DNA of 23,347 bases from a virus. Of the stretch, positions 2,292-21,075 are shown one piece after another; within the stretch, counting starts at the first letter, position 1; each line of letters opens with the position of its first letter. The position numbers and the translations under genes are program-made. Location: IMG/VR virus record IMGVR_UViG_3300004242_000062, positions 1 to 23,347 of that record; one strand, given 5' to 3'. The notes beneath the pieces are model-generated. The model saw nothing but the letters and a program-made list of their open reading frames with translations. It searched no databases and was not told where the DNA came from.

Positions 2292-2306
2292 TAATTAAAT
2301 AAAAAT

Positions 2307-3074
2307 ATGAAAAAAATAGCAATAATTGGCTATGGATGGGTAGGAAAAGCAATGGAGAAGTTATTTCCGGATGCTGTTATCTATGATCCATTGCTAGGTT
2401 ACAAAACGACTAAGGAAGAAGTAAACAAGTGCGACATAGCTTTTATTTGCGTACCATCACCTTGTCCGGCAGAAGGCGCTTTGGACATTTCTATCATTGA
2501 TGAAGTTGTCTCATGGTGCGATTGTCCCCTTTTGGTCATGAGGTCAACAGTCAACCCAAACACTTGCGACTCACTTTCAAAAAAATATAACAAAAGAATC
2601 GTGATGCAACCGGAGTACCTCGGTGAGACTCCTGCACACCCAATGTATGATCCCAAGACTCGTCAGTTTCTAGTTATCGGAGGTAAGCCAAACGATAGAC
2701 GAGAACTGATTGATCTTTACACAACAGTCTATAACGCCAATACCAACATCCGACAGGTGAGTGCGCTAGAGGCCGAGATCATAAAGCTATCCGAGAATCG
2801 AGCCATCTCCTTCAAAGTTTCCGAGTGTCAGGAACTTTACGATGTGTGTGAGAGAGCTGGAGTTGACTATTACACCATTCGTGATGCTGTCTACTCGGAT
2901 GATCCTCGCTTCAATCTATGGTGGACATTCGTGTTCCCTGAAAAGAGAGGTTTCAACTCAAAATGTATTCCAAAAGATATCTATGCGTGGTGCGCTTGGG
3001 CTGAGTCCTTGGGGTACAAACCGGAAATTACCAGAGCAATACTTGAAAGGAACAAAAAATGGATCTCACAGTAA
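2307..3074 (+). CDS. Truncated UDP-glucose/GDP-mannose dehydrogenase-family protein
   Basis: This 255-residue protein begins with the NAD-binding motif IGYGWVG (Gly8, Gly10, Gly13). It continues with family signatures FICVPSPCP, MRSTVNPNTCD and QPEYLGETPAH, then EAEIIKLSENRAISFKVS from the central dimerisation helix, and RGFNSKCIPKD, where Cys220 matches the catalytic cysteine. UGD-family enzymes oxidise NDP-sugars twice to uronic acids in the cytoplasm. Typical members have about 400-450 residues with a C-terminal Rossmann domain that binds the nucleotide sugar. This protein stops shortly after the catalytic cysteine, so that domain is absent. The active-site residues appear intact, but substrate binding must differ from classical UGD. 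It starts 15 bases after the HAD gene in an A-rich leader and overlaps the glycosyltransferase by 16 bases. Confidence 0.8.
   Translation: MKKIAIIGYGWVGKAMEKLFPDAVIYDPLLGYKTTKEEVNKCDIAFICVPSPCPAEGALDISIIDEVVSWCDCPLLVMRSTVNPNTCDSLSKKYNKRIVMQPEYLGETPAHPMYDPKTRQFLVIGGKPNDRRELIDLYTTVYNANTNIRQVSALEAEIIKLSENRAISFKVSECQELYDVCERAGVDYYTIRDAVYSDDPRFNLWWTFVFPEKRGFNSKCIPKDIYAWCAWAESLGYKPEITRAILERNKKWISQ
3046..3051 (+). promoter_or_regulatory. Ribosome binding site of the glycosyltransferase gene
   Basis: AAAGGA lies seven bases before the ATG at 3059, inside the end of the dehydrogenase gene. It is one of few convincing Shine-Dalgarno matches in the window and supports the 3059 start. Confidence 0.55.
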
Positions 3075-4715: not shown

Positions 4716-5693
4716 ATGGCTTATGGATTAGATTTTATTACTGGTGGAACTGCTAGTGCAGACTCTGAGTTTAGTGGTGATTTTAATGCGAGTAAGGCGT
4801 GTGATAACGATGAAGGTACGAGGTGGTCATCAACAGTAACAGCGCTTCCACACTGGTGGAAGTATGACTTGGGTGCTGGAATAACTAAGATTGCCAGAAA
4901 AGTTAGAACCAAAGCGTATGCCCCAGATGATCTCCAGATGAAGGATTTTACCCTTCAAGGAAGTAATGATGACTCTGACTGGACAGTTGTTTATACCGGA
5001 CAGGCTACTAATAGCGATGCGTGGCAAGAGTTCGAGTTCGATAACTCAACCGCCTACCGCTATTACAAATTAAACTTCACAACAACCTACTATGGTTCTG
5101 GTGGAACTATTTCTATTTGGGAACTAGAAATGATGGAGTTCACTGGGAGCGCCTCATCTTCAATATCGGCATCGGCAAGTAGTTCAGAATCCCCATCAGT
5201 TTCAGCTTCTCAATCACCATCCTCCTCAGTTTCCGCAAGTGCATCAAAGTCAGTAAGTCCTTCGGTATCTGCTTCTCCAAGTATGGGTTACACTGGATAT
5301 ACAAGGGGAGATGTTGCCATCATTCCATCAGACGATACAGACCTTGAAACTAACTATGATGCGCAAGACTTACTAGATGTAGCCGTAAAAGATAATATCA
5401 GAGTCGGTCAGACTGGAACTCTTGAATACATGATTCATCAATTCAAAAACTTTGTTGATAGTAAATCTGGAGTAATGGTTTCTTGGATAGGTCAGACAAC
5501 ACTCGCACCAGCATCTTCGGTTGTCAAACTACAGATTTTCAATCGGACTACTAATTCTTGGGATGATCTTGATAGTGATAACACTACGGCAATCAATACA
5601 GATATCGAATTATCAGCAACAGTCGGAGATTTTACGAATTATAAAGATGCTCGGAGTGTGATTTCATGCCGAGTGTGGCAACTAGCAATCTAA
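4716..5693 (+). CDS. Virion adhesion protein with discoidin (F5/8 type C) domain and Ser-rich linker
   Basis: The protein has 325 residues. Residues about 10-145 fit an F5/8 type C (discoidin, carbohydrate-binding) beta-sandwich. [42 protein letters not shown] and [10 protein letters not shown] are the classical succession of motifs. Residues about 143-190 are a Ser-X linker (for example [17 protein letters not shown]). The last 130 residues form a different beta-rich domain of unknown family ([18 protein letters not shown] ... [10 protein letters not shown]). No signal peptide is seen, as expected for a virion component. It opens the fibre block behind promoter copy A and lies one base before the LamG/Ser-repeat gene. 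A role in binding host surface glycans is likely from the domain but not proven. Confidence 0.75.
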
Positions 5694-5694
5694 A

Positions 5695-8295
5695 ATGGCT
5701 CAACTAAGTCTCACAACCCTCATAGACAATGCAAACCTAAAAGCGTATTACCGCTTTGAAAGTGGTGCTTTGACAGCAGACAGTAGTGGAGAAGGACACA
5801 CATTGACAGACATTGGTGCACCAGATGAGGTAAGCGGAAAATGGAGTACCGGTGGTGTAGGTCTTGTTGGTGCTAATTCAGATGCGTTTTCATTGGGAGA
5901 CCACGCTGATTTTCGTGCTACCTCTGCTTTTACTGTCGGTTGTTGGTATAAATCATCAGCTACGGGAACAAATCCATATATTTTCCAATGTTATGCAATA
6001 TCAGGGAGTGTAGTTTATGGTTGGGATTTTTATTGCGACACAAATGACCATGTAGCTCTTCAATTAGGAAAAGGAACAGGAATTGGATTTCCTGCAGATT
6101 ACAATCGTGCTATCGGAGATGATGATGTTATAGATGGAACATGGCATCTGATCTGCGGAACATGGGATGGTTCTAATATAAAAGTATGGGCTGATGGTGT
6201 CCAAAGCGGTGACTCTGTAGCCTTTTCAAATCCAGCGTACGCAGGAACAAATTACATTAGAGTTGGTTGTTTCAATTACAACGGAACGGATAGCGGTTTC
6301 CAAAATGCCGAAATTGATGAGCTTTTCTTTGTCAATGGAGAGGCTTGGGGAACAACTGAGTTTGCCCTTCTTATGTCAACTGGATCGGCATCTCAGTCTC
6401 CCTCCGGTTCACAGTCCCCCTCTGGTTCACAGTCCCCCTCCGGTTCTTTATCTCCCTCAGCCTCCGCTTCAAAGTCGGAATCGAAGTCCCTCTCTCCCTC
6501 TGCCTCAGCTTCTAAAAGTGAAAGTAAGTCGGCTTCTAAAAGTGAAAGTAAGTCGGCTTCTAAAAGTGCAAGTAAAAGTGAGTCTAAGTCTAAATCACCC
6601 AGCTCTTCTCCTTCTAAAAGTGAAAGTAAGTCGGCTTCTAAAAGTGCAAGTAAGTCGGCTAGTGCCTCACTTAGTCCTAGTGCAAGTTTATCTCCATCCG
6701 CTTCAGCCTCAAGGTCGGCTAGTGCATCCGCTTCTAAGTCTGAGTCGAAGTCAGCAAGTGCTTCATTATCTCCCTCTGCCTCTGAATCCAAGTCGGCTTC
6801 TGCTTCGGCTTCTAAGTCAGCCTCTGCATCGCTGTCTCCCTCCGCCTCAGCAAGCAAGAGTGAGTCTGCATCCGCTAGTGCTTCTGAGTCTAAAAGTGCC
6901 TCTGCCTCCCTGTCTCCATCGGCATCTGAGTCCAAGAGTACATCCGCCTCCGCATCTGCTTCGGAATCTGCATCTGAAAGTCCGTCTTTATCCCCTAGTG
7001 CGAGTGAATCAGCATCAGAGTCTGCTAGTGAGTCTGCTTCCGAGAGTGCTTCTGGGAGTGCATCTCTATCTCCCTCTGCCTCCGAGAGTGTATCGGCAAG
7101 CTCATCTGAAAGTAAATCAGGTTCTGCCTCCGCTAGTCCTTCCGGAGGTTCACCTTCTGAAAGTCCTTCTATATCACCATCGGCAAGTGAGTCAAAATCT
7201 CTTTCTCCATCTGCAAGCGCTTCGGCTTCTGCTTCGGCTAGTGAATCTAAATCGGCCAGTGCCAGTGCTTCCGCCTCTGCTTCTAAGTCTGCTTCCGCCT
7301 CCGCATCTGCTTCTGAAAGCAAGTCACTCAGTCCATCTGCCTCAGAAAGTAGGTCAGCCTCGGCATCGGCAAGTAAGTCACTATCGCCATCAGGGAGTGC
7401 TTCAGCAAGTGCTTCAGCAAGTGCTTCCAAATCTGCTTCTGCTTCAGCCTCTGCATCTGAGTCAAAATCTCAATCTCCATCTGCATCAGAGAGCGCCTCT
7501 GCGAGTGCCTCAGAGTCAGCAAGTTTGAGTCCATCCGCATCTGAATCAGCCTCCGCAAGCGCTTCGGCTTCAAAGTCTGCCTCCGCTAGTGAGTCTAAAT
7601 CGGAAAGTGCTAGTGCTTCCGCCTCTTTGTCACCCTCCGCTAGTGAGTCAGCAAGTGCAAGTAAGTCAGAGTCCGTATCTGCTTCAGCTTCAGCTTCAGC
7701 AAGCGAGAGTGCATCGGCTAGTGCCTCAGAGAGTAAGTCATTGTCTCCATCAGCATCGGAGAGTGCATCACTAAGTCCAAGCGGAAGTTTGAGTCCGTCA
7801 GCATCAGAATCTGCAAGTGGAAGTGCAAGTTTGAGTCCATCTTCATCTGAGTCACCAAGTCCGAGTCCTAGTTTAAGTCCTTCAGCCAGTGAGTCAGCTT
7901 CAGCATCAGCTTCCGAGTCTAGGTCTGCTAGTGCTAGCGAGTCTAAGTCTGAGTCTCCGTCAGTATCTCCATCTCCGGTTCAGTACGAACTCTTAACAGA
8001 TTTTTGGGGTATTGTACTTATCAGTCCTTCCTCATCTCCATCTGCTTCACTGAGTTCAAGCGCCTCGGAGTCTAAGTCGCAAAGTCCAAGTAGCTCGGTA
8101 TCATCTTCTCCCAGTGCCTCTGAGTCGCCAAGTGTTTCAGCATCTCCTTCACCTCCAACCTATACGAATGAATATGATAGAAAATCAACAGAATATCCGG
8201 CAGACTGTTATGCTGACAAAAATACCTCGTACACCAGCGAGTATTCTGACCTGACAACAACATATACAAACAAATACTCACGATGGAACGACTAG
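5695..8295 (+). CDS. LamG-like fibre protein with giant Ser-X repeat region
   Basis: The protein has 866 residues. Residues about 1-225 form a concanavalin/LamG-like beta-sandwich ([63 protein letters not shown]), a fold that commonly binds carbohydrate. Residues 228-761 are an almost uninterrupted Ser-X dipeptide repeat with X mostly Ala, Glu, Lys, Pro, Gly or Leu. A hydrophobic island ([15 protein letters not shown], residues 763-777) breaks it, followed by another 40 or so Ser-rich residues. The last 45 residues are Tyr/Thr-rich with repeated YTxxY units. Serine is encoded by both TCN and AGY codons throughout, so the pattern is kept at protein level. It resembles the stalks of serine-rich-repeat adhesins, which are O-glycosylated. 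A tail-fibre or appendage role is inferred from position and domains. Confidence 0.75.
6394..6447 (+). repeat. 18-base tandem repeat, three units
   Basis: Units start at 6394, 6412 and 6430. Each encodes Q-S-P-S-G-S and they differ at only a few bases. This near-identical array marks the start of the Ser-X region and points to recent local duplication. Confidence 0.8.
6508..6567 (+). repeat. 24-base tandem repeat, about 2.5 units
   Basis: Two identical 24-base units (6508-6531 and 6532-6555) encode A-S-K-S-E-S-K-S and are followed by a partial third. A closely related copy recurs from about 6613. Such identical units could expand or contract by slippage in multiples of three and change stalk length without a frameshift. 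Confidence 0.75.
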
Positions 8296-8320
8296 CCTTT
8301 AATCAACTTTATCGTTTAAT
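8293..8320 (+). promoter_or_regulatory. Leaderless-type promoter, copy B
   Basis: TAGCCT (8293-8298) and TTTAAT (8315-8320) are separated by 16 bases, and the -10 box ends seven bases before the ATG at 8328. The TAG of the -35-like box is also the stop codon of the Ser-repeat gene, which explains why this copy has TAG where the other two have TTG. The block 8295-8322 matches the other copies at about 24 of 28 positions. Confidence 0.65.
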
Positions 8321-8327
8321 CTAGCTT

Positions 8328-9941
8328 ATGGCAATATATGAATTAAGGGAGTGGGTTGGCGGTATCAGCTCGTTTTCTGATCGTGGAATAAGAGGTTCTT
8401 TCAAGATGGGAGCTAACCTTGATATCCGCAAGACTGTTGACACTCTAACTGCCGGACAAGCCCTAAAAGAGGAGGGAATCTGGGGATATTCTCACTCTTC
8501 CTCACCATCGCTATCACCTAGTGCATCTATGTCTCCTAGTGGTTCAGGAAGTCCGTCTTTGAGTATGAGTGGAACGCCTAGTATAAGTAACTCTGCTTCC
8601 GCATCTCCTTCCGCATCAGCATCCCCTTCAGCCTCGTCATCGGCTTCAGCATCGAGTTCCCTATCGCAATCAGCTTCTCAATCACCATCTCCTAGTAAGT
8701 CAGCCGATCAGGGAAGTGTCTATGTGGATCTTGTCATGTTCTGGGTGAAGGCAACCGATGGAGCAACCTACGGCTTTGGTAATGCTGGATATATTTATAG
8801 AAGATATGCGGATGGTTATGTCAGAAATGTCTGGCATGATCCCGATGGTGGTATTAAGGGTGCAGTCGAAAAACCCTCTTCCACCGGAAAGACATACCTC
8901 CAATGGGCTACAACCAACAAACTGAAACAAAAAGAGCTGGCCGGAGCATCTGACTGGAGTGATGTAACCACTGTCGCTGAAAACCTTAATGGATCAGACT
9001 GGCACACAATGGTACAGGTTGGTGGAGCAAACTATATTGCCAATGGAAACTTTCTAGCGCTATGCGGATATGATGACTCTTTTACTAACGAAGCCCTAGA
9101 TATTATCCCAACAGATCAGGTCAAGACCTTGGTAGAGCGAAATGGAAGAGCTGTTATCGGAACTTACAAGACCGGATACCCGAACAAGGGAACTAACGCC
9201 ATGATTGATTGCGAGTACCCCCTAGCTCAGATTGGTGACGATGGTTATCTATATTATGCTGACTTTACCAACACCATGCCGATCAAGCGCTTTCCGGCAG
9301 GTGGTCGTGTCAACCCTAGCGGTGTTACCAACGAAGTCGATCAGGTCAACATCTATGACTGGGAAAGCAACTCCTTATCTTGGGTGGACAAACAAACCTT
9401 GGGGAATATGAGTCTCTGGGGAGTATTTGGTGCAACATCGGGTTACAACGGAGTCTATACCTATGGTAGACGGAATAAAGAGCAACCATTTACCCTAAAC
9501 TTGGAGTATGCCTTGGAAGCAGATGAAATAGGCGCTGTGACCAATGTAGATGGCACGACAATCATCTCTTATAGAAGTGGTGCTACTTATGGCGTGAAGG
9601 CGGTAGATGCCACTACAAAGGCTGTGGGGCGATATGAGAGTTTAGAGTTTAGATCACCAGTAAAGGGTGTAGAAAAGCCGACCAACTGGAAATATGCTGA
9701 AGTCTTTACTGAGAACTTACCAGCCGGAACAAGTATTGAAATGTTCTACAAAATGAATAAGGCTACTTCTTGGAAAAGAGCCTATACAGCTAATGGTGGA
9801 GTAGCGATGGATTCTTACAATATGAAGAAGGGGACATTCCGGATTGGAGCTGAAGGTGATGTCTTTGAGTATAAATTGCTTCTCAACTCGACTGGTAATG
9901 TCTCTCCGACAGTATTAAGAGTTAGAGTTTATTTTGAATAA
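8328..9941 (+). CDS. Phage tail structural protein with internal Ser-rich insert
   Basis: The protein has 537 residues. The N-terminus (YELREWVGGISSFSDRGIRG, then FKMGANLDIRKTVDTLTAGQ) and the large C-terminal part (LVMFWVKATDGATYGFGNAG, WATTNKLKQKELAG, SDWHTMVQVGGANYIANGNF) look like a family of phage structural proteins with repeated beta-strand, propeller-like units. I recognise the pattern but cannot name a characterised member. Residues about 55-125 are a Ser-Pro/Ser-Ala tract that splits the N-terminal part from the rest, so the Ser tract appears inserted rather than terminal. The gene starts directly behind promoter copy B and ends in a TAATG overlap with the next gene. A baseplate or tail-hub role is possible. 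Confidence 0.65.
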   Translation: MAIYELREWVGGISSFSDRGIRGSFKMGANLDIRKTVDTLTAGQALKEEGIWGYSHSSSPSLSPSASMSPSGSGSPSLSMSGTPSISNSASASPSASASPSASSSASASSSLSQSASQSPSPSKSADQGSVYVDLVMFWVKATDGATYGFGNAGYIYRRYADGYVRNVWHDPDGGIKGAVEKPSSTGKTYLQWATTNKLKQKELAGASDWSDVTTVAENLNGSDWHTMVQVGGANYIANGNFLALCGYDDSFTNEALDIIPTDQVKTLVERNGRAVIGTYKTGYPNKGTNAMIDCEYPLAQIGDDGYLYYADFTNTMPIKRFPAGGRVNPSGVTNEVDQVNIYDWESNSLSWVDKQTLGNMSLWGVFGATSGYNGVYTYGRRNKEQPFTLNLEYALEADEIGAVTNVDGTTIISYRSGATYGVKAVDATTKAVGRYESLEFRSPVKGVEKPTNWKYAEVFTENLPAGTSIEMFYKMNKATSWKRAYTANGGVAMDSYNMKKGTFRIGAEGDVFEYKLLLNSTGNVSPTVLRVRVYFE

Positions 9942-10456
9942 TGGATGAAAAAGTTTACACACCAGAAGTTATCACTGAGAACCCATTTCCAACCCAGAAC
10001 TCAGTTATCGTAACCGAGAGTTCCGGAGAAAGTGGGGGTGTTTATTCTAATGCTACAACCAACGACAAACCGATAGTCAGAAAAAGGATTGCTACAGAGC
10101 TACTTTCAACAGCTCTTAACACACGAAGCAAGCGCATATTACAAGAGTTTGAGTTGCAACAGTCCGGAGGATTCAGAATAGGAAACTATAAGGAAGGAAT
10201 TACCGGAGAAATCTCTATTACACCTGAAGGAATTATTACCAAAGACAAAAACGGACTAACCACAGTAGCTATTTATGGTGAAGATGGTAGTGGGGTATTC
10301 AAAGGTACAATACAGGCCGGATCATTTGTGGCCGGAACGCTATATCTAGGTAGTGAAGCCGGAAATGTCTATATTGACGGAGAGGCACAACAAATTATCA
10401 TCAATGATGGTGAAAACGATAGAGTACTAATTGGTTATGGAAAAGGCTTATTCTAA
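9941..10456 (+). CDS. Small tail/fibre-associated beta-helical protein
   Basis: This 171-residue protein has a helical middle part (IVRKRIATELLSTALNTRSK). A C-terminal series of short beta repeats follows (GEISITPEGIITKDKNGLTT, YGEDGSGVFKGTIQAGSF, LYLGSEAGNVYIDGEAQQII). The phrase in which a Gly-Thr-Ile-x-Ala-Gly-Ser step follows a short strand-turn unit is common in phage minor tail and fibre-connector proteins. The ATG at 9941 shares its A with the stop codon of the previous gene (TAATG), which suggests coupled translation. Function beyond a virion structural role is inferred from position. Confidence 0.6.
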   Translation: MDEKVYTPEVITENPFPTQNSVIVTESSGESGGVYSNATTNDKPIVRKRIATELLSTALNTRSKRILQEFELQQSGGFRIGNYKEGITGEISITPEGIITKDKNGLTTVAIYGEDGSGVFKGTIQAGSFVAGTLYLGSEAGNVYIDGEAQQIIINDGENDRVLIGYGKGLF

Positions 10457-10459
10457 ATT

Positions 10460-11200
10460 ATGGCTGAAGATTATGGTCTGAAGGTATCATTAGAGGGTTA
10501 TGATGTACAGACTTGTACAGAACTTCAAACTGCTTTTTCAAACAACTCTAATCTACTAAAGGTAGCCTATACCGGAAGTGGAACTATACCAGCCGGAAAT
10601 GTAGTTACAATCACTCACGACCTTGGTTATGTGCCTCAATTTTTGGTTTATGGAGATGTTTATAACCCATACGAAGAAGTAACAACCTCTTATCTTGCAA
10701 CTGGTGATTTTTGGGATCAGTTGGTGGCTGGAGCTGATACAACCACCCTGAAGGTAATAGGCATGGAAGATCAACCCTATACTTATTATATTTTCTATGA
10801 GACTATCGATGGTACATCACAAGACATCACTGCTTCAGATGCAGACTATGGAGTAAAGGTCATGAAAACTGGTTACGATATAACATCAACCAATCTAGAT
10901 CATCAATCACTGAATAGTGAAAAAAACTGCTTGAAAATAGCAAAATCCGGAACATACTCCGGAACTTCAATAGATAGTGATTACAATACTGTTTCAATCG
11001 CACATGGACTTCCTTACACACCATCGTTTCTAACTTGGTTTCAGATCAATGGTGATGGTCTCTATTATGCTGGAACATCCCTAGATAGTATCGAATATGT
11101 TAGTGCAGATGGAACAAATCTCTATTTTACCTATCATGGAATATCCGCCGATCAAAGTATTAAATGCTATTACATATTATTTGTTGAAAAATCCACATGA
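10460..11200 (+). CDS. Fibre protein made of two tandem 'DYG' modules
   Basis: The 246 residues are two diverged copies of one module of about 115 residues (about 4-115 and 129-243). Both start with DYG-[LV]-KV, then GYD and an LK-[VI]-A strand. Both share a His-containing turn (ITHDLGYVPQFLVY versus IAHGLPYTPSFLTW) and end in YYI-[FL]. A third copy forms the N-terminus of the next gene. The HDLGYVP/HGLGYIP turn is common in phage tail and fibre proteins and suggests a beta-sandwich. There is no Ser-rich tract here. The start is three bases after the previous stop, and the end overlaps the next gene as ATGA. Confidence 0.6.
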   Translation: MAEDYGLKVSLEGYDVQTCTELQTAFSNNSNLLKVAYTGSGTIPAGNVVTITHDLGYVPQFLVYGDVYNPYEEVTTSYLATGDFWDQLVAGADTTTLKVIGMEDQPYTYYIFYETIDGTSQDITASDADYGVKVMKTGYDITSTNLDHQSLNSEKNCLKIAKSGTYSGTSIDSDYNTVSIAHGLPYTPSFLTWFQINGDGLYYAGTSLDSIEYVSADGTNLYFTYHGISADQSIKCYYILFVEKST

Positions 11201-12153
11201 GTAAAGATTATGGAATTAGAATCTCTCAAAAGGGACACGATGTTAAGACCTGTACTGATCCGGAGACAGTATTTAGTTCAAAGTTTGATAATCTGAAAAT
11301 ACACACTAGGGGGACTGGAACAATTTACGATTCAACCGGAAGAACTCATACTATTGCACATGGTTTAGGTTATATTCCGGCTTTTGTAATTCATTCTCAG
11401 CCTGACATATTGTTCACTTCAGCCTACTCATCCTTTGGTCTCGATGGAAAATATATGATAGCTCCCATTCAACCAATAGCTACCGATATCGGATCTCCTT
11501 ATTATTGGTACAACCGAGGAACTACAGTTTGGGCTGATTCAACTAATATCTACATTAAATTAGATGACGACTATGGATACGAATATAGCTTTACAGACTG
11601 CGAAAATAATAACTACGGAGGTAAACTTGGAGCTTTTTACACAAGTGGTTCATTTCCAGTTGGTCGTGATGGGGATGATTATTTATCTGGCGCATTAAGG
11701 TTTAACGATATAGATGTAACGGGAAGTGTCCAGAAGGCAAAAATCGGGATTTATATTGTCGAGTTAGGAAATAACTCAACTCCAGTTAAAACTTGGGGAA
11801 TGGATGAAGATAATACTGGTGATCTCTCTGGTGATCCTATGGGAAGGACAAAAACCACAGCATATATTGAGAATAGTAGAGATGCTGGATTAAATACTGG
11901 TTCAACTTGGGCATATGAAGTCACAAGTATTTTTAATGAAATAATTGGAAGGGGTGGCTGGTCAAGTGGAAACCATATGGGATTCTTGTTTGAAGATAAT
12001 GGCTCAACGAATGATACTCTGATTATGATTCCAGAAGGATCATCTGACAATACTGGTTTTCCATTTAACACACCAAATACTTATCTCAAGTGGCTCAAGA
12101 ATGACAAACTTACAGATTACCGATATACGATCTTCAAAAACAAACTTGCATGA
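11197..12153 (+). CDS. Fibre protein: 'DYG' module plus C-terminal adhesion-like beta domain
   Basis: The protein has 318 residues. Residues about 4-125 are a third copy of the module found twice in the upstream gene (DYGIRISQKGHDVKTCT, NLKIHTRGTGTI, TIAHGLGYIPAFVIHS). The C-terminal half is different. It contains VQKAKIGIYIVELG, then WAYEVTSIFNEIIGRGGWSS, and GNHMGFLFEDNG. The pattern of a T-S-I-x-x-E-I strand-helix followed by GWSSGN resembles DNRLRE-type extracellular beta-sandwich domains, but that match is from memory of the motif only. The gene is the last of the fibre block. Promoter copy C begins six bases after its stop. A receptor-binding tip role is plausible but unproven. Confidence 0.6.
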   Translation: MSKDYGIRISQKGHDVKTCTDPETVFSSKFDNLKIHTRGTGTIYDSTGRTHTIAHGLGYIPAFVIHSQPDILFTSAYSSFGLDGKYMIAPIQPIATDIGSPYYWYNRGTTVWADSTNIYIKLDDDYGYEYSFTDCENNNYGGKLGAFYTSGSFPVGRDGDDYLSGALRFNDIDVTGSVQKAKIGIYIVELGNNSTPVKTWGMDEDNTGDLSGDPMGRTKTTAYIENSRDAGLNTGSTWAYEVTSIFNEIIGRGGWSSGNHMGFLFEDNGSTNDTLIMIPEGSSDNTGFPFNTPNTYLKWLKNDKLTDYRYTIFKNKLA

Positions 12154-12158
12154 TAATG

Positions 12159-12186
12159 TTGCCTTTAACTAACTCTATTGTTTAAT
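12159..12186 (+). promoter_or_regulatory. Leaderless-type promoter, copy C
   Basis: TTGCCT (12159-12164), a 16-base spacer and TTTAAT (12181-12186) precede the ATG at 12195 by eight bases. The repeated block is 12161-12188. It is the only non-coding gap between the fibre block and the connector/giant-protein block, and it has no Shine-Dalgarno sequence. Confidence 0.7.
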
Positions 12187-12194
12187 CTAGCAGT

Positions 12195-12902
12195 ATGGAC
12201 ACACTCGAAGAACTAAGAAGTGCGGTACAGGATGACCTGACAGTAGGGAGCGAATCCACCCTGTACTCACCCACAACCATCGACCTTGCTATCAATAGGG
12301 CTTACCGAAAGGCTGGAGCAATGTTTAACTGGCCGGAACTCATGGATGCTAAGAAAACCACAACAGTTGCTGGACAAGAATACTACGACTACCCCTTAAC
12401 ATGGAGATCAAACTCAATCTGGAAGCTAAGAGTCAATAGTGAACGCTACGGAGAAGATCCGGATGGTTCTCCCCTCTCATTTGATGACTATCTAAACTGG
12501 AAAGAGGACTACCCTTCATCTACCGACAAGAAGTGGAGTAATCAAGAAAGACGATACTTTATCTGGCCAGTACCAACCGCCACAGGAACTGAGATCTGCG
12601 TACATGGAATGATGGTGACTACCAAGTTGACTGTAGACGGAAGTGTAACCATCTTCTCCTACTCGATGCCGGAAGGTAATGAGGCTATAGTATCAGAAGC
12701 GGTTGCCATCCTTAGAAACAAAGGCTCTGAGGACAAAACCGGACAATTCAGAAGTCTAGAAGCTAAACAATTATTAGCAATCGCTTGGGATAAAATTGCC
12801 AAAGAGAAAGCTAAGTACGAGAAGAACCAACCCTTCTTCGATGTACCTAACTTCTTTGGTGATACAAGTACAAAAGACCTAAGAGGTCTATTTGACATTT
12901 AA
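12195..12902 (+). CDS. Head-tail connector / tail adaptor-like protein
   Basis: This 235-residue protein begins with a helical segment typical of phage adaptor proteins (TLEELRSAVQDDL, then TTIDLAINRAYRKAGAMFNW). It continues with a beta-rich middle (TTVAGQEYYDYPLTWRSNSI, YFIWPVPTATGTEICVHGMM) and ends in a helical, charged tail (LLAIAWDKIAKEKAKYEKNQ). This layout matches the adaptor or head-tail joining proteins of short-tailed phages (P22 gp4-like in general design). I cannot confirm the exact family. It starts at the ATG behind promoter copy C and runs directly into the next gene. Confidence 0.55.
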   Translation: MDTLEELRSAVQDDLTVGSESTLYSPTTIDLAINRAYRKAGAMFNWPELMDAKKTTTVAGQEYYDYPLTWRSNSIWKLRVNSERYGEDPDGSPLSFDDYLNWKEDYPSSTDKKWSNQERRYFIWPVPTATGTEICVHGMMVTTKLTVDGSVTIFSYSMPEGNEAIVSEAVAILRNKGSEDKTGQFRSLEAKQLLAIAWDKIAKEKAKYEKNQPFFDVPNFFGDTSTKDLRGLFDI

Positions 12903-12903
12903 T

Positions 12904-14046
12904 ATGACAGATCCAACAGGAAAACCAGCGCCATCAGGAGGCTTCCAAACCGGAGGGTGGTATTCAGGATATCAATATTGGAATGGAACATTTGCTCCCC
13001 AAGCAGGACAGATCCATCCGGCCAGTACTCAACAGGGTGCTGGACAAGCCGTATCACCTGAAGTAAACGCTCAGACATCAGTACAAGCAGGACTAGCTCC
13101 AAATGCTAATCAGGACTATATAAATATGCTTAACCAACAGCCAACGGCGACAACAGCCCAGTATGCTCCTTCTGCGACCACTACAGGCGCTTCAGGTGGC
13201 ATGACAGGTACTTCTGCGATGACACTTCCAACAACTCCGGAGCTGGACTTACAAAGCCTCTATGGCAACCTACAGAATCAATCTGGAATATCAGACTTAC
13301 AGAACAAATATCTCGAACAAGAAAGAGCTTTTATTAACGCTAAAGCTCAGATAAACGATAACCCTTATCTCTCAGAGGCCACCAGAGTGGGTAGAGAAGC
13401 CAAACTAACCAAGATCTTCAATGAAAACACCGCTAATCTTCAAAACGAGATCAAGATGAAACAGGCTGATGTGGAGACTCAGATGAATCTTGCTATGAAA
13501 CAGTTTGATATTAACTCAGAGATCGCTAAGACTAACTTTGCTAAGTTTAATTCACTACTTGAGATGGGAGCTTTGGATAATGCTACAGGAGACGATATTG
13601 CTAATATCACCAGAGCAACTGGAATATCCTCAGACATGATCCAGAGTGCGATCAAGTCAAGAACGGCAAAGGTAGAAACACAAGTGATCCAGTCTACTGC
13701 TGATAGCGGAGAGGTAACTGTCTCGGTGATCGATAAGAATACTGGAGAAATTATTAGCCAGAAAAGTCTTGGAAGGATTGGAAATGCTCAGACCGGAGAT
13801 ACAGGGGTTTCTAGTACAACTCTCAATAGTGCGGTGAAGGCTTTGGAGGCAGTTGACCTAACCGGACAACAGAAAAATGATGCTTATGCCGGACAAACAA
13901 CTCAAGGAGATAAGTTATTATCTGAAGAGGAAGCTAACATCGCATATCAGAGTATCCTAGCCTTAGTTAATTATGATGAAGCAAAAGCTAACACATTATT
14001 CAAACAGGCTTGGGATTATGGACAATTCCAGACTTGGACACCATAA
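12904..14046 (+). CDS. Uncharacterised virion-region protein, low-complexity N-terminus and coiled coil
   Basis: I do not recognise a family. The first 110 residues or so are rich in Gln, Thr, Ala, Gly and Pro and look disordered. The middle (about 120-200) is strongly helical and charged (YLEQERAFINAKAQINDNPY, KMKQADVETQMNLAMKQFDI) and probably coiled coil. The C-terminal 150 residues mix beta segments (VETQVIQSTADSGEVTVSV) with helices. Its place between the connector-like gene and the giant protein suggests an internal virion or ejection-associated protein. The ATG at 12904 follows the previous stop by one base. A TTG at 12892 in the same frame has a better-spaced AGAGG (12882-12886) and would add four residues, so the start is uncertain. 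Confidence 0.6.
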   Translation: MTDPTGKPAPSGGFQTGGWYSGYQYWNGTFAPQAGQIHPASTQQGAGQAVSPEVNAQTSVQAGLAPNANQDYINMLNQQPTATTAQYAPSATTTGASGGMTGTSAMTLPTTPELDLQSLYGNLQNQSGISDLQNKYLEQERAFINAKAQINDNPYLSEATRVGREAKLTKIFNENTANLQNEIKMKQADVETQMNLAMKQFDINSEIAKTNFAKFNSLLEMGALDNATGDDIANITRATGISSDMIQSAIKSRTAKVETQVIQSTADSGEVTVSVIDKNTGEIISQKSLGRIGNAQTGDTGVSSTTLNSAVKALEAVDLTGQQKNDAYAGQTTQGDKLLSEEEANIAYQSILALVNYDEAKANTLFKQAWDYGQFQTWTP

Positions 14047-14049
14047 ATT

Positions 14050-17000
14050 ATGGCTACAGTTGTCGATCAATTATTTGGCAAACAAGCAACTACTTCTGGG
14101 ACAAAACCGACAGTAACAACAAAAACAACTGCTCCGGTAGTCCAGAGTATCTTTGGTGCAACCAAGAAAGTTTCTCAACCCACGACAACTCCTCCGGTAG
14201 TCTTTCCAACCACCTCTGAACCAGAGAAAAAAGTACAAAAACAGGGACTTTTTCAAAAAGCAAAAGATATTGTTGTAAAAGCGGTAGAAACATACAAAAA
14301 GATCCCCTCGACTGCTCAGGAAGTGAAGATGCTGGAGACTGCCATCCAACCGCTAGTTGACAAGGCAACTCAAAACCCTACAGTCAAGAATATCCTAACT
14401 GGAATAGCCAGAAGAACATCTGGAACTGGTATTTTGGCCACCATCACATCAGTATCACCAGAGGTTACTTTTTCTGAAGCCTATGAAACATTCAGAAAAG
14501 CACAGTCAATAGAAAACGACACCCTAAAAGAACAGTTCCTTACCAGCCTTGGAGATACATCTCCTCAGACGGCTTTGGGTGTAGCTCTCAACTTCGTACC
14601 TATCGTTGGCAAGCCACTATCAATAGCTTACTGGACTGCTGTATCAGCCGGATCAGAACTTGATGAAAAAGGCAAGGTTACTCCTACCAATGTTGCGATT
14701 GATGTTGCTCTGGACAGTGTACTTGGAAGAACTTTGGAGAGTTTATTCAAAAGTACAACAAGAACTCTATTCAATACAGTCAAGAAATCATTTGTCGCTG
14801 AAGGTGGTACTGAGGTGGCACAAGATCTACTCAAGTTTGCGAATGAATACAGGCTCTCAACCACACAAGAAGGCAAGGATGCGATTATTCAACAGGCAAA
14901 AGAATACTTCACATCTGGACAGATACTGGTTACAGCCGGAGTCGGAGGTATATCCGGAGGTGGTATAGCTATTGTCGGTAGCGTACTCACTCCGGAACAG
15001 GCTCTAAAAGAAACACTTGGAACTCCAAAGCAAGAGACTCCGGAAAGTAAAGAGATTATTAAGGTGGCCATAGAAGCTCAACAGCAGGGAGCAAATGTAA
15101 AGATAACCGAGAAAGGCGCTGAGATAACACAAGAAGCGCCAAAGGTAGCTCCGATTGAGGTAGTCGAAGAAGCTAAACAAAAAGCAGAAGAAGGTAAGGT
15201 TGTAGAAGAAGAATTGCCATATGATCCATCAAGACTTGAAATAAGGATTTTGAATCCAAATACAGGTGGAAATCCAAGTGATAAATATGAAGTGCAGGTT
15301 AGATATAAGGGATTTGCCTCAGAAAAGAAAGGCTTTGACACGAAAGAAGAAGCACAGAAGTTTATGGACAACTATGAGTTTAAGGGAATGACAACGAGTG
15401 TGGCTGATGATTATGCAGGATCAAAATTCTTTGGCGAGACATATTTTAAGAATCTAAAGGTTAGTCCTAAGCCAACAAACAAGGGAATAGAATCCCCCCA
15501 AGGACTAACACCAGAGGTGGGGGTGATAAGAAACTCAGACATAAAAACATTTTTTGATAAGAATTACGATAAATTATCTACATCAGACCAAAATAAACTA
15601 AGCAAGATTATCTATGGTATGAGGGGAGAGTATGGAGGCGAAGCAATACTAAAGCCAGATGAGGAGAGGCTTCTAAAAAGAATAATGGAAGAAGGTAGAA
15701 CAATGTCCAAACCTGTTCCTGTAAACATAAAAACTGGCAAATCTGCCTTTAAGGGTGGTGATGTATTTCCAAGTTATGGAGAATACTCTCAAGAGTTTGG
15801 AGGATACAAAGCCATCTCTCAAGGAATGGATATGCAGGGTGATTATTTAAGAGCCGTCAACGACTCTATAACAGGTAAAAGAACAGACCTCGGTAAACCT
15901 ACGTCGCAAGTTATTGATGAAGCAAAAAGAATAATTAACACTCACTCTCTAAACCCAGAAACTGACTTATCAAACTTAAATAGGGCAATATCCCAGTCAG
16001 GACTAACACCAGAGGTAAGTAGTGTTGGAAAATGGGTTAGTGTACAAGATAAGGGATCTATACCGGGGGAGTCACCTTTGCTAGAACTTAAAAAGGGTAA
16101 TAAAACAACTGCTGGCTTATTTGACTCAGAAGATGGTGGTTTTTATATTAAAGACACAAACGGTCATTTTACAAGAAATCCCGTTACAGAAACAACTATA
16201 TTTGATACTAAAGAAGAAGCGATAAAACAGTTTGATAAACAGCAAAGATTTTCTTCCCAAGGACTAACACCAGAGGTAAAGGAGAAAGCCAAACCGAAAG
16301 AGGTGGTAGCAAAAAAAGAAAGGCCAAAGGTTGAGAAGAAGCCGGTTGAAGTAAAAGAAAGCAGATTTACCAAGCCGATCAATGAGTACCTAGATAAGTC
16401 TTATGGTAAAGACATTGAGACTGCCGGAAAGAAGCAAATACTGGAGGCCTTATCAAGAACTGATGGTAATGCTTATCTTAACTACACTCCAGAACTTAAT
16501 AAAAAACTAAGCAATCCGATGGGTGGGATAGTGGATGACTCTATTGAGATAAGGCCTGCTCTTCTGTACGGAGGCAAAACTAGAAATGTCTTTACCGATG
16601 GTTATCTTCTCATTCTCAACAAGAATATGGCCGGAGAGATAAATGATAGATTTATTGAAAAAGAGAAGGCCTCATTGGTTAAGGAGTTTCAGAGAGATCC
16701 TGAAATAACCTTCAAAGAGGCTAATAAACTGGCTGATGAAAAAATTAAAGAGAATATCGAACTATATTCCGGAGAGAAACAATATCCTCCCTACAAAGAT
16801 ATCGCCCCTTCAGAGAAAGGAAAACTGCTTGAGCCAAAGGCTATTTACTCTAACATAGGTACTCCAGTTGTCATCCATGACCTAGATGGAGAGCAAGTAC
16901 ACATAGGCGCTGACAAGATCGCTCTCTTCAAAAAGTACTTTCCGGAATTGGAACTCTATGGCACAGGATCTATAAAACCAGTAACAGTCTACAACGGCAA

Positions 17001-20000
17001 AGAGATGGTGGGTTTAATCATGCCGATAAGACATGATGAGGTTATTTATGATCTGGAAAATCCAAGTACCGCCAAACAGCCCCTCGCTTCAACCGATGCT
17101 TATGCTACTTCACTTGAAAACATTACCGAGTCGATGGATCAGTTTAAGGTGGTGCGCTTTCCGGAGATGGTTAGGTTTGCCGAACAACTCATGGGAAGGA
17201 CTCCGGAGGTAGAACCGATAAGACCAAGAAAACATCTAGGACTGGTTAGAGGTCTATTTACCCCGACTCTTGACGGCAAGATTACCCTCAATCCGACTAT
17301 CTTCAAAGATCCCAAACAGGCCTCATTTACTCTAGCCCACGAAATGGGGCATCTGATTGACTACCTACCGGATCAGGTCACCTCAAGAGGCAACCTTCTG
17401 GGAAGAATAGCTACTATGAGAAAGTTTCTGAGACAGACTTTCTCCGGAAGAGATATTGAGGCTCAGGTAGACGAGCTAATTCAGGAGAGAAACGACCTTA
17501 GAGAACAGCGAAGAGAGGACAGAAGTAATAGAGAACTACTCAACCAACTCAAGAAGATCAATAAGGAGATAGCGCAACTGCGCTCCAAAGATGTCATCAA
17601 GAACGCTGAGATAAAAGCGGAACTCTGGGAAGTCAGCAAAAAGTGGAGACCGCTTGGTAAAAGTAAGGACTCTGAGTATCTAAAATACCGGAACTCTCCG
17701 GAAGAACTCTACGCTGATGCTATCTCGGTACTTCTCAATGATCCTATGGCTCTCAAACAGTCAGCGCCTAAGTTCTACGATGCTTTTTTCAAGAACCTAG
17801 AGGCCAAACCTAAAGTCATGGATGAGTATCTCAAACTCCAGAAGTTACTACACTCAACTGAAGAAGAGATCCTCAATCAACGCTTGTCTGACCTTGACAG
17901 TGATTATGCCGAAGGTGAAGCAAAAGGTCTGGCTATAGACTCGGAGGCTCTTAACCAAAAAGAGAACCTCATAAACATCATGTCCACTCTCTTCAATGAC
18001 AAGAACGCTGAAATCAACCGAAGAGTCAACAAGTACATTAAGGCCGGAGGGATTGTCGATCCTAAAGTCAACCCTATTTATGATCGAGCCGGACTTAACT
18101 ACATGGAGGGCTTTGTCAAGAACTTTATCGCTGATAACTTTCAAGGAGCAAAGACTCTGGCTGAGGAAGTGCCGAATGGGTGGGTAAACTTAGGCAAGAT
18201 CCTTCAACTAGAAAGAGCTATCTACGAAAGAGGAGAACTGGCTAACCCTAGAGGTTACGATCCGGTAGAAGCACAAAAGACACTAGACCAACTCCAGAAC
18301 ACGATGACTCCGGAAGAGTGGGCTTCACTTCAAAAAGCTAAAGAACAATTCAGATCGGGAGTCCAGAAACTGATTGTGTATGCCGAGGAAAACGGCTTCT
18401 ACAAACCGGAACTTATAGCTCAGATGAAGGCTAATCCGGCCTACGCCACTTTCCAAGTCCTAGACTACTTTGATACCAAGGTCAGCTCTTCAGTCATCCA
18501 CCAAAAGGGAACTCTCAAGGCTATTGCTAATCCGGCCAACTCCACGATCATGAAGGCTATCACGACTCTTCGTGCTATCCGCTACAACCAGTCAAGAGAT
18601 ATCAACCTTAACTTCATGGAGACAGCTTTTCCAGAGGATATTACACCAGCCAGAAAACGCTTCACCGGAAAGACAATCGAGTACTTACCATCAAAAGACA
18701 GGACTCAGGAACTGGTAACAGTCATTCGAGATGGCAAGTTACAGGGATACTATGTACCTAAAGAAGTGGGTACAATCCTCAACTTCTCCAACGACAACAC
18801 CATGAGACAACTCGGAAAGCTGAGTAAGATGCTTACCGGAGCTGGTATCTACCGACCTCTCTTTACCTCACTTAACATGGGCTTCCAGATCTTCAACCTG
18901 AAGAAAGATTTTAGTAGATCTTGGAAGAACCTACCGGACAGGACTGTTAGACAGGCGGTTACTTCATTCTTCAAACTAACCGGAGAGTACGAGAAAGCTA
19001 TAAAACCTGCTTGGAGAAGAGCCACCGGAAAACCAGATACTTTGATCAAAGAGATGGAAAACGCCGAACTTCTCGGACTCACCCTAAACCAGCTTTATGG
19101 AACTCCAGATCCGGAGGATCAACAGATTAACAGAACACTTCAGAAAATTGGAGTCTTGCCTCAAGAAGAGGCCAACTCAAGGTTTAGAACTCTAGTCAAA
19201 CCCATAATCAAGATATTCGATGGAGTAGAGATTATTGGGAACTTTATTGAGACTCTACCAAAAGTGGCCGGATACAAGATTATCCAAGCAGAACAGAAGG
19301 CCAAAGTCCACTACATCAGAAACTATATCGGCTCTCCGGATTTTAGAGTAGCCGGAACTGCGACTCCAATAACCAACAACATTTTCCTTTTTTCTAACGC
19401 CAGCAAAGAGGGTATCAAGGGAGATGCTAACTTAGCCTTCAAGAAGTCTCCGACTCGAAGTGCTTGGTGGTTCAAGACAAGCCTAGATGTTGTCCTTCCG
19501 AAACTACTACTGATTGCGATGGCCGGAGGACTACTGGGAGATCCATTCAAGAAACTACTAGAGAATGTCTCCGAGTACGACAAGACCAACTATGACATCA
19601 TTCCGATGGGTACAGACAAGAATGGTAAGACGATCTTCATTAGAGTACCCAAAGACCAGACTGGACAGTTTATCGGAGCGCTGGTCTGGAAGTTTGCTAA
19701 CCTTCTCAAGCCTCAAGACAAACAGAGTCTCCTATCAGATATTGCCGACATCTTTGGTCTATGGGCTGGAGAACTACCAACAACAGTACCCTCTATTGAT
19801 GGTTTTGTAGCCACCTTGACCTATCTCTCTGGAAAGAACCCCTACGACTCATTCAGAAACAGGCTAATTATTCCGGAGACCGAGTTTAAGGCTGGTTTCA
19901 AATACTCATTTCCGATATTCCTTGACTGGCTTTCTAAGAACCAAGGTCTAAACATCGTACTGCCTTCCTATACTCCGGAAGGTCAGATTTCTTCTCTAGA

Positions 20001-21075
20001 GAAAACCCTCAACCTTCCAGTACTCTCCAATATCATCGGTAGGTTTATCAAGGTGACTGATTATGGCAAGATCGAGAAGCAAAGGATAGAACAAAAGAAG
20101 ATAGAACAAGAGTCTGCTGTCCGGACTGCCGAGAAGAAAGTGCAAGTTGAGAAGGCAGTCAACACTTTTGTCAGCAGTGAAGATCAGAGTCCTCAAGCCA
20201 AACAGAAAGCCATCAATGACTTAATCGTCAAGGTGCTAGGCCACCCAGTCTCCTCTAAGGAAGAAAATACAACGGCTAACGATATTACCAAGCGATTTAA
20301 CATGGGAGTCATCACAGACCGCTATGATGCCAATGTAGACAACATTATCTCGGCTCAGACCAATGATCAGAAGGCAAGCGCCCTAAAGTACCTCTATGAA
20401 GAAGATCGTAAGACTTTCGATCTGGTCATGCCAATACTCACCCAAGAGGGGATTTTGAGTAAAGACACTCTTCAGAAGTTTCAGATTTTACTCTCAACCG
20501 GAAACAAAAAAACCTCACAACTTAACCCTTTTAAGGTTCGTCAGGCCATGGCTAGTGAAAAGAATATGGGGAATACCAAGTTTGAAGTCTGGGATCTAGC
20601 AAAAACCGGAGATGGAGATGGAAGGATCATATTTACCAAAGAGAATGAGTCTATCCCGATAAGATCCAGTAAAGGCAGGGACACCGATAAGATCATCATG
20701 AGTCATCAGGTGGAGATAGATGCTATTAACAAAGCCTCGAAGCGCTTTGGGGTTAGAGCCGGACTAATGGTAGATATTGCTTTACAGGAAAACAGTCTCA
20801 AGAATACTCCTCACTATCCTAATGATCCGACAAGAACGGCCACCGGACTGTTTGGAATCACCGATGCTACATGGAGAGAGAATCTAACCAGACTGAAGAA
20901 ACTCGGAGTGCTAAGCGATAATCCTTCAAGAGAGAACCCAAATGACAATGCGATGATGTCAGCTTATCTACTTGGTGAGAAGAAGCAGATTAGTAGGTGG
21001 AGAGCTGGGGGGTATCATCGAAAGTGGTCTCAGTTCTATACAAAAGATGAGTTAAAAGACTACGGAAACTTATAA
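14050..21075 (+). CDS. Giant polyvalent/ejection-type protein with HExxH metallopeptidase and lytic transglycosylase-like domains
   Basis: The protein has 2341 residues. The Thr/Pro/Lys-rich N-terminus leads into helical segments with Gly-rich hydrophobic stretches (VGGISGGGIAIVGSVL). Residues about 380-760 are a mosaic of small modules separated by three GLTPEV repeats. The metallopeptidase part has LAHEMGH (HExxH, His1097-His1101), with EELYADA (1218-1224) as the likely third-ligand region. A large helical middle includes a hydrophobic segment (LLLIAMAGGLLG, about 1819-1830). At the C-terminus DIALQENSL (Glu2247) and TATGLFGIT (2263-2271) fit a goose-lysozyme/SLT-type transglycosylase. Such giant multi-enzyme proteins are thought to enter the host with phage DNA and open the cell wall. 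It starts three bases after the previous stop without a visible Shine-Dalgarno. Enzymatic domains are well supported; ejection is inferred. Confidence 0.75.
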   Translation: MATVVDQLFGKQATTSGTKPTVTTKTTAPVVQSIFGATKKVSQPTTTPPVVFPTTSEPEKKVQKQGLFQKAKDIVVKAVETYKKIPSTAQEVKMLETAIQPLVDKATQNPTVKNILTGIARRTSGTGILATITSVSPEVTFSEAYETFRKAQSIENDTLKEQFLTSLGDTSPQTALGVALNFVPIVGKPLSIAYWTAVSAGSELDEKGKVTPTNVAIDVALDSVLGRTLESLFKSTTRTLFNTVKKSFVAEGGTEVAQDLLKFANEYRLSTTQEGKDAIIQQAKEYFTSGQILVTAGVGGISGGGIAIVGSVLTPEQALKETLGTPKQETPESKEIIKVAIEAQQQGANVKITEKGAEITQEAPKVAPIEVVEEAKQKAEEGKVVEEELPYDPSRLEIRILNPNTGGNPSDKYEVQVRYKGFASEKKGFDTKEEAQKFMDNYEFKGMTTSVADDYAGSKFFGETYFKNLKVSPKPTNKGIESPQGLTPEVGVIRNSDIKTFFDKNYDKLSTSDQNKLSKIIYGMRGEYGGEAILKPDEERLLKRIMEEGRTMSKPVPVNIKTGKSAFKGGDVFPSYGEYSQEFGGYKAISQGMDMQGDYLRAVNDSITGKRTDLGKPTSQVIDEAKRIINTHSLNPETDLSNLNRAISQSGLTPEVSSVGKWVSVQDKGSIPGESPLLELKKGNKTTAGLFDSEDGGFYIKDTNGHFTRNPVTETTIFDTKEEAIKQFDKQQRFSSQGLTPEVKEKAKPKEVVAKKERPKVEKKPVEVKESRFTKPINEYLDKSYGKDIETAGKKQILEALSRTDGNAYLNYTPELNKKLSNPMGGIVDDSIEIRPALLYGGKTRNVFTDGYLLILNKNMAGEINDRFIEKEKASLVKEFQRDPEITFKEANKLADEKIKENIELYSGEKQYPPYKDIAPSEKGKLLEPKAIYSNIGTPVVIHDLDGEQVHIGADKIALFKKYFPELELYGTGSIKPVTVYNGKEMVGLIMPIRHDEVIYDLENPSTAKQPLASTDAYATSLENITESMDQFKVVRFPEMVRFAEQLMGRTPEVEPIRPRKHLGLVRGLFTPTLDGKITLNPTIFKDPKQASFTLAHEMGHLIDYLPDQVTSRGNLLGRIATMRKFLRQTFSGRDIEAQVDELIQERNDLREQRREDRSNRELLNQLKKINKEIAQLRSKDVIKNAEIKAELWEVSKKWRPLGKSKDSEYLKYRNSPEELYADAISVLLNDPMALKQSAPKFYDAFFKNLEAKPKVMDEYLKLQKLLHSTEEEILNQRLSDLDSDYAEGEAKGLAIDSEALNQKENLINIMSTLFNDKNAEINRRVNKYIKAGGIVDPKVNPIYDRAGLNYMEGFVKNFIADNFQGAKTLAEEVPNGWVNLGKILQLERAIYERGELANPRGYDPVEAQKTLDQLQNTMTPEEWASLQKAKEQFRSGVQKLIVYAEENGFYKPELIAQMKANPAYATFQVLDYFDTKVSSSVIHQKGTLKAIANPANSTIMKAITTLRAIRYNQSRDINLNFMETAFPEDITPARKRFTGKTIEYLPSKDRTQELVTVIRDGKLQGYYVPKEVGTILNFSNDNTMRQLGKLSKMLTGAGIYRPLFTSLNMGFQIFNLKKDFSRSWKNLPDRTVRQAVTSFFKLTGEYEKAIKPAWRRATGKPDTLIKEMENAELLGLTLNQLYGTPDPEDQQINRTLQKIGVLPQEEANSRFRTLVKPIIKIFDGVEIIGNFIETLPKVAGYKIIQAEQKAKVHYIRNYIGSPDFRVAGTATPITNNIFLFSNASKEGIKGDANLAFKKSPTRSAWWFKTSLDVVLPKLLLIAMAGGLLGDPFKKLLENVSEYDKTNYDIIPMGTDKNGKTIFIRVPKDQTGQFIGALVWKFANLLKPQDKQSLLSDIADIFGLWAGELPTTVPSIDGFVATLTYLSGKNPYDSFRNRLIIPETEFKAGFKYSFPIFLDWLSKNQGLNIVLPSYTPEGQISSLEKTLNLPVLSNIIGRFIKVTDYGKIEKQRIEQKKIEQESAVRTAEKKVQVEKAVNTFVSSEDQSPQAKQKAINDLIVKVLGHPVSSKEENTTANDITKRFNMGVITDRYDANVDNIISAQTNDQKASALKYLYEEDRKTFDLVMPILTQEGILSKDTLQKFQILLSTGNKKTSQLNPFKVRQAMASEKNMGNTKFEVWDLAKTGDGDGRIIFTKENESIPIRSSKGRDTDKIIMSHQVEIDAINKASKRFGVRAGLMVDIALQENSLKNTPHYPNDPTRTATGLFGITDATWRENLTRLKKLGVLSDNPSRENPNDNAMMSAYLLGEKKQISRWRAGGYHRKWSQFYTKDELKDYGNL
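15498..16277 (+). repeat. Three-copy GLTPEV linker repeat in the giant gene
   Basis: An identical 17-base sequence occurs at 15502-15518, 16000-16016 and 16261-16277, always in frame and encoding GLTPEV. Copies 1 and 3 are identical over 22 bases, starting CCCAAGG. They separate small modules, two of which share FDTKEEA (residues 430-436 and 718-724). A weak related sequence (GRTPEV, 17194-17211) may be unrelated. Confidence 0.8.

Follow-up and report, generated by a model that had tools for sequence, protein, structure and literature searches.

An in-frame 17-base repeat bordering modules in the variable slot of a giant polyvalent-type phage protein

The locus described here raises the question why a single phage gene should carry the same 17-base sequence three times, each time in the same reading frame and each time at the border of a small protein module. 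It is part of IMG/VR virus record IMGVR_UViG_3300004242_000062, of which the whole stretch from position 1 to 23,347 (23,347 nucleotides) was analysed and is from here on referred to as the window. An earlier note, made from the letters alone, had proposed that the modules were gained from elsewhere, with the repeat serving as a recombination seam or as a linker copied with each module, and had pointed to a stretch of about 1.35 kb that lacks the pentamer CCGGA and looked AT-rich in its codon choice.

As judged by its sequence, the giant protein is built like a phage polyvalent protein, namely as a single large polypeptide (2341 aa) with an N-domain, a slot, a core and a transglycosylase-like (SLT) domain, encoded in a phage genome. 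The virus has a second record, which contains terminase and major head protein genes; the terminase has distant matches only. The parts of the giant gene are as follows.

14050-21075, + strand: giant ORF encoding a polyvalent-type phage protein of 2341 aa, with a core homologous to the giant protein of phage Baldr
14341-15003, + strand: N-domain (aa about 98-318), common to L067, L070 and L078 at 28-41% identity
15004-17085, + strand: variable cargo slot (aa about 319-1012), with no similarity in L067, L070 and L078
16552-17073, + strand: segment E (aa 835-1008), common to L063, L072, L077 and L086
17086-20484, + strand: conserved core (aa about 1013-2145), with HEMGH at 17338-17352
about 18700-20100, + strand: LPD38-like part, within the conserved core
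20722-20982, + strand: C-terminal transglycosylase-like (SLT) domain (PF01464, phrog_4067)

Residues 1009-2002 of the protein match the giant protein of Pelagibacter phage Baldr (26%), and a profile search of viral_contigs with the core yielded 63 loci, the window's virus among them. Together with loci collected earlier, 68 giant ORFs were obtained, leaving 59 core relatives after removal of nine duplicates, a set in which near-duplicates such as L100 and L101 remain. The motif HExGH is found in 54 of the 59, and three of the five proteins that lack it are truncated at the 5' side. Individual domain assignments are close to or below thresholds: zincin-like Pfam matches of the window protein (M91, 17.8 bits; SprT-like) fall below their cut-offs, LPD38 gives no match in the window protein and, among the relatives scanned with Pfam (L021-L024), is seen in L024 only (19.0 bits vs a cut-off of 27), and the SLT domain is recognised by PF01464 at E 3.3e-4 (20.7 bits, cut-off 21.3) and by phrog_4067 at E 1.7e-6.

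L067, L070 and L078 match the window protein throughout the N-domain and then again from residue about 1013-1029, and the slot in between has no match in any of the three at E 0.01. To this extent the proposed gain of modules from elsewhere is supported, although no donor of modules A-C was found. The N-terminal parts of other relatives carry ParB-like domains (L021, L023) and Eco57I plus SNF2 domains (L021), and no enzymatic cargo domain was recognised in the window protein's own slot. Three of the modules in this slot are separated by the repeat.

15220-15501, + strand: module A (aa 391-484), weakly predicted beta-beta-beta-alpha, containing FDTKEEA
15520-15999, + strand: module B (aa 491-650), helical by a low-confidence prediction
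16018-16260, + strand: module C (aa 657-737), weakly predicted four strands plus a helix, containing FDTKEEA

A single-sequence structure model of A-C reached a mean pLDDT of 44 (47-70 in the ordered blocks of module A) and was therefore too poor for a fold search; a PDB sequence search with A-C returned one match at E 0.48. No relative of modules A, B, C or D was found among the 59 giant proteins and the other ORFs of the collected loci (blastp E 0.05, phmmer E 0.1). Likewise, A-C have no relatives in the phages, plasmids and genome_contigs collections, and B and C none in viral_contigs beyond the same virus, the scans of genome_contigs and viral_contigs being sensitive to close relatives only. 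FDTKEEA is indeed common to two modules, at 15334 in A and 16201 in C, with 18 of 20 nt identical; in both predicted structures the motif follows the last strand and precedes the helix. The resemblance of A and C around this motif is marginal, and a duplication of A and C was rejected, FDTKEEA alone being shared (shuffle P 0.021) and B being unrelated.

The repeat itself, GGACTAACACCAGAGGT, occurs exactly three times in the window (15502-15518, 16000-16016 and 16261-16277, all on the + strand), and no extra copy is found there at up to three mismatches. All three copies lie inside ORF 14050-21075 in one phase, are translated as GLTPEV and are spaced 498 and 261 nt apart, both divisible by 3. 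Exact identity extends beyond the 17-mer to 22 nt between copies 1 and 3, 20 nt between copies 2 and 3 and 18 nt between copies 1 and 2.

15497-15518, + strand: seam copy 1, 22 nt identical to copy 3, with GLTPEV at 15502-15519
15999-16018, + strand: seam copy 2, 20 nt identical to copy 3
16259-16280, + strand: seam copy 3, with a 22-nt exact match, AAGGACTAACACCAGAGGTAAA, to L005:6845-6866

Shuffled windows contain 0.08 copies on average and none of 100 had three, which confirms the three identical in-frame copies as a true feature of the gene; in 20 synonymous shuffles of the giant gene, no in-frame repeat of at least 17 nt arose. The same three copies are present in the second record, IMGVR_UViG_3300027739_000068, which is the sole other record of the virus and is 100% identical to window 6050-19858, where the two were compared. 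No record was found in which the same seams enclose fewer modules or other ones, a point that speaks against exchange at the seams.

Given the codon usage of this virus, a second GLTPEV would have the same codons with a probability of about 0.01 per copy, and we estimate the probability of two further copies with identical codons at about 1e-4. Because of this codon identity, the repeat points to descent at the DNA level and not to peptide selection alone, and it looks like DNA that was copied along with the modules. The contrary view takes GLTPEV to act as a peptide, such as a processing site for the protein's own zincin-like peptidase (HEMGH), which would be repeated owing to selection on the peptide; this view strikes us as unlikely. 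PMC5512222 proposes processing of polyvalent proteins by a metallopeptidase embedded in them, and a fourth similar peptide, GRTPEV (about aa 1050), closely precedes HEMGH (1097). However, the GRTPEV site is part of the peptidase domain and variable in relatives, so that a cleavage site argued from it is not supported by them, GLTPEV is found in 0 of the 59 core relatives, and selection on the peptide does not explain identical codons. A processing role of GLTPEV and a seam in the DNA could both hold.

Base composition gives a less clear picture than the repeat. Modules A-C (15220-16260) have a GC content of 0.373 and a GC3 of 0.28. Among 266 windows of the same length, taken from those of 28 genes of this virus that were long enough, they rank lowest or nearly so (percentile 0.00). 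Their synonymous codon choice is ordinary (85th percentile), and the AT-rich codon choice described previously thus stands for GC and GC3 but not for the choice among synonymous codons. Along the giant gene, GC3 is low (0.33) from the first codons on and does not increase until the conserved core (0.485), and the codon signal is therefore a step and not a bounded island. CCGGA is strongly enriched, with 138 sites on both strands of the window vs 22.8 in dinucleotide shuffles (about six times) and 56 in the giant gene vs 19.3 in synonymous shuffles (2.9 times). It is absent between 15044 and 16424 (15045-16423), as had been noticed; this gap has P=0.005 within the gene but P=0.15 over the whole window, where a longer gap of 1407 nt is found at 4996-6403. 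The longest CCGGA gap in L028 (same virus, 19.9 kb, about 13.8 kb outside the window) is 673 nt. The module region is compositionally unusual, yet these markers do not prove import, and the case for foreign origin made from them in the earlier note is weak because synonymous codons are ordinary and an equal CCGGA desert exists elsewhere.

The same data bear on the possibility that A-C were acquired as one AT-rich block in a single transfer, with repeats that originated before the transfer, in the donor, or after it through local duplication or gene conversion, and with a seam that had no role in exchange. Such a block would fit the GC of A-C taken together, the lowest or nearly the lowest for their length in this virus, and the CCGGA desert does cover all of A-C; this desert, however, begins upstream of A and has its equal elsewhere, the choice of synonymous codons is ordinary, the search for a donor of the block found none, and a match to the seam in L005 suggests that the seam has a life of its own. 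We therefore hold a single block transfer to be improbable.

The exact 17-mer was found in six stretches of viral_contigs (the same virus, L005, L006, L009, L007 and L008) and, in genome_contigs, as four matches that are all single. L006 and L009 have the same sequence at the site, the L007 copy is located in a DNA polymerase (PHROGs) and the L008 copy is out of frame; of four distinct viral matches, two are clearly unrelated (the DNA polymerase and an antisense match). By a rough estimate, the number of matches elsewhere is near chance, as would be expected of a trivial low-complexity or chance repeat or of an assembly artefact, but three copies in one gene where 0.08 are expected, none in synonymous shuffles, and the recurrence of all three in the second record make this explanation very improbable.

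In L005, the 22-nt match to seam copy 3 lies at the start of tandem cassettes. The protein encoded there (1791 aa) contains two tandem ADP-ribosyltransferase (PF18760) cassettes and is otherwise unrelated to the window protein (best BLASTP E 0.19). A PEV-coding seam is present at all three cassette borders, and the edges are identical over 46 and 65 nt. According to a rough, post hoc estimate, the probability that a match of this kind at such a place is due to chance is 1e-3 to 1e-2. In a fold comparison with the PDB, the L005 cassette is most similar to chain 9k3a_B of the cyanophage A4 pre-ejectosome (E 5.5e-6, TM 0.50). A near-copy of the seam with three mismatches, of which 14 nt including one flanking base are exact, is seen at L005:6304-6320 in the N-terminal part of the protein.

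The peptide GLTPEV did not turn out to mark borders in general: of the 68 giant ORFs and the 73 bracket proteins (described below), only L108, which is the contig of L005, contains it. A relaxed pattern, with V encoded as GTA and the next codon starting with A, occurs in 13 stretches, 11 of them besides the window's virus and L005, and ten of these 11 lie in open frames of at least 100 aa; most sites, judged by reading, are not border-like, and GLTPEV as a marker of phage modules in general was rejected. GLTPEV is found in linker-like stretches at L039:1841 (1734-aa ORF) and in L038, as is a single copy of the exact 17-mer at L009:1707 (1209-aa ORF), and L039:1841 and L009:1707 are possible further seam sites. 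L009 and the 400 aa of L039 that were tested have no PHROG match, and L039, L038 and L009 contain neither a second GLTPEV copy nor an in-frame repeat of at least 17 nt.

Taken with the architecture of the protein, we think it probable that the region is an exchangeable slot of a polyvalent protein and that the repeat is a seam copied with modules B and C. The protein would probably travel in the virion and enter the host upon infection. The seam would be linker-coding DNA copied along as B and C were joined between module A and the core, and recombination between two seam copies, or with the seam of another phage, could add, remove or swap a whole module, with the frame kept because every seam copy has the same phase. 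A role of the repeat as recombination seam or as linker copied with a module is favoured by the identical codons, the border match in L005 and cassettes between direct repeats elsewhere, while we infer that recombination, and not another copying process, placed the copies and that the seam is still active. Minimal pairing lengths given in the accessible text of PMC3945230 are 31-34 bp for RecA and 23-27 bp for Red-beta, and ordinary homologous recombination across a seam of 17-22 nt should thus be inefficient. The seam may be an eroded footprint, or the product of annealing or slippage between short repeats.

Cassettes with a second type of border were found in a search with the edge of the L005 cassette, which gave 170 stretches, 124 of them confirmed and 80 kept. 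These bracket cassettes have near-constant edges, EARKYKSAEEFVKAQ ... KSQLTDIWNKA, around mostly unrelated bodies (L108-L187), and a simple filter left 73 distinct bracket proteins, among which a few near-duplicates remain.

L108:4470-5393, also L129, L183 and L128: examples of bracket cassettes

For the 39 cassettes in which both edges are recognisable, the bodies form 26 clusters, and median edge identity is 85% (N) and 64% (C) while body identity is 26% vs 24% for shuffled bodies. Pfam assigns ART-PolyVal to 12 of the 39 and single families such as ParB_N to others, and at least 19 have no Pfam family at E 0.01. Both edges were detected by profile in two of the 59 core relatives, and the N edge upstream of HExGH in six (two close to each other, one weak). 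The window protein itself lacks KYKSAEEF...LTDIWNKA edges: its edge profile scores are not above those of shuffled copies, and bracket remnants were rejected on this ground. Against bracket ORFs (phmmer, no filters), the best whole-protein E-value of each module falls within 0.021-0.048, and none of the individual stretches goes below E 0.038, which we read as noise.

The edges are conserved in their codons as well. Codon agreement at the N edge is 0.711 between proteins vs 0.468 predicted by usage, and a pure relatedness effect was rejected since the 1551 edge pairs from proteins unrelated elsewhere still reach 0.713 vs 0.471; for the C edge, 155 such pairs reach 0.584 vs 0.401. The peptidase motif of the core relatives, used as a control, has no excess (0.369 vs 0.380), and short motifs of bracket ORFs have a small one (GYDG 0.55 vs 0.47, YHG 0.52 vs 0.43). 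Other well-conserved segments of bracket proteins, close relatives included, have 0.683 vs 0.440 over 375 protein pairs, and this excess counts against a codon constraint specific to the edges. Inside the edge, Ala codons are free (0.27 vs 0.30; 0.35 vs 0.30) while several neighbours are nearly fixed, and for this reason the pattern looks like a base-specific constraint and not like plain recent ancestry. It should be noted that the edge scan could bias the codons of the first eight residues, GAGGAG TTT GTG being outside the scanned stretch, and that several edge codons are off consensus in the brackets of the core family (L049, L050, L064). The consensus of the 73 N edges includes GAGGAG-TTT-GTG, arranged like an internal ribosome-binding site followed by a start codon. 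One possible function of the AAGTATAAGAGTGCNGAGGAGTTTGTG bracket is that of a recombination site, another is a role in translation.

Direct repeats are in excess in both sets of proteins. In-frame exact repeats of at least 17 nt amount to 20 pairs in 67 giants vs 4.1 in synonymous shuffles, a count that includes the window's three pairs and some low-complexity pairs, and to 17 pairs in the 73 bracket proteins vs 3.8, with L005 counted in both sets; 51 of the 59 core relatives have no such repeat. In bracket proteins, 22 of 34 repeat copies are near cassette edges vs 2.9 expected, which is partly to be expected because the edges are conserved peptides. In L183 and L128, a direct repeat of 21 and 23 nt, respectively, flanks one cassette on both sides. 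We tentatively put forward, as a doubtful but conceivable generalisation, a cassette-exchange system of ejected phage giant proteins at the DNA level, in which seams and brackets kept at the nucleotide level across unrelated phages would frame non-homologous effector cassettes for in-frame trading, the 17-mer, common to the window and L005, being one type of seam and the AAGTATAAGAGTGCNGAGGAGTTTGTG bracket a more widespread type. If frame-keeping seams were common to unrelated phages, they would provide a concrete mechanism for rapid effector swapping, and cassettes could be found in metagenomes by their edges, as a source of new phage effectors.

The phage polyvalent proteins described by Iyer et al. 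2017 (PMC5512222, accessible text) are likewise large and multidomain, with a zincin-like motif, a transglycosylase-like end and cargo varying between relatives; unlike in those proteins, no named enzyme was recognised in the slot modules of the window protein. They have so far been described there by domains and not by DNA seams: no linker-coding seam is described in that text, in which the word 'linker' occurs 0 times. The same source draws an analogy to polymorphic toxins, in which cassettes are recombined into the main gene to give new variants, and states for the kinase context that small neighbouring ORFs may recombine like toxin cassettes; the variable part of the window protein differs in lying inside the protein, with a border on either side. 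In phage mosaicism through relaxed homologous recombination, as covered in the available sections of PMC3945230, exchanged segments also have short sequences in common at their borders, but these borders lie between phage genomes, whereas the borders described here are in-frame, within one gene and below the minimal pairing lengths. Among the papers accessible to it, a literature search found no description of DNA or linker seams in polyvalent proteins.

Several further features were observed in relatives and in the rest of the window. The core relatives L092 and L093 contain a repeated linker, GENVEGRS (25 nt), at aa 161/880 and 162/866, and in this set a proline-rich 39-nt repeat is also found as a linker. 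The CCGGA desert at window 4996-6403 covers the end of an F5/8 type C domain gene and the start of a Laminin_G_3 gene, and possibly corresponds to exchanged host-recognition genes. An 866-aa gene at 5695-8295 has a long Ser/Ala-rich part in which exact repeats reach 43 nt, and it is crossed on the opposite strand by a 345-aa ORF (6393-7430, - strand). Window 1-4678 holds a sugar-related cluster consisting of a GHMP kinase, an epimerase, a UDP-glucose dehydrogenase-like PHROG match and a glycosyltransferase.
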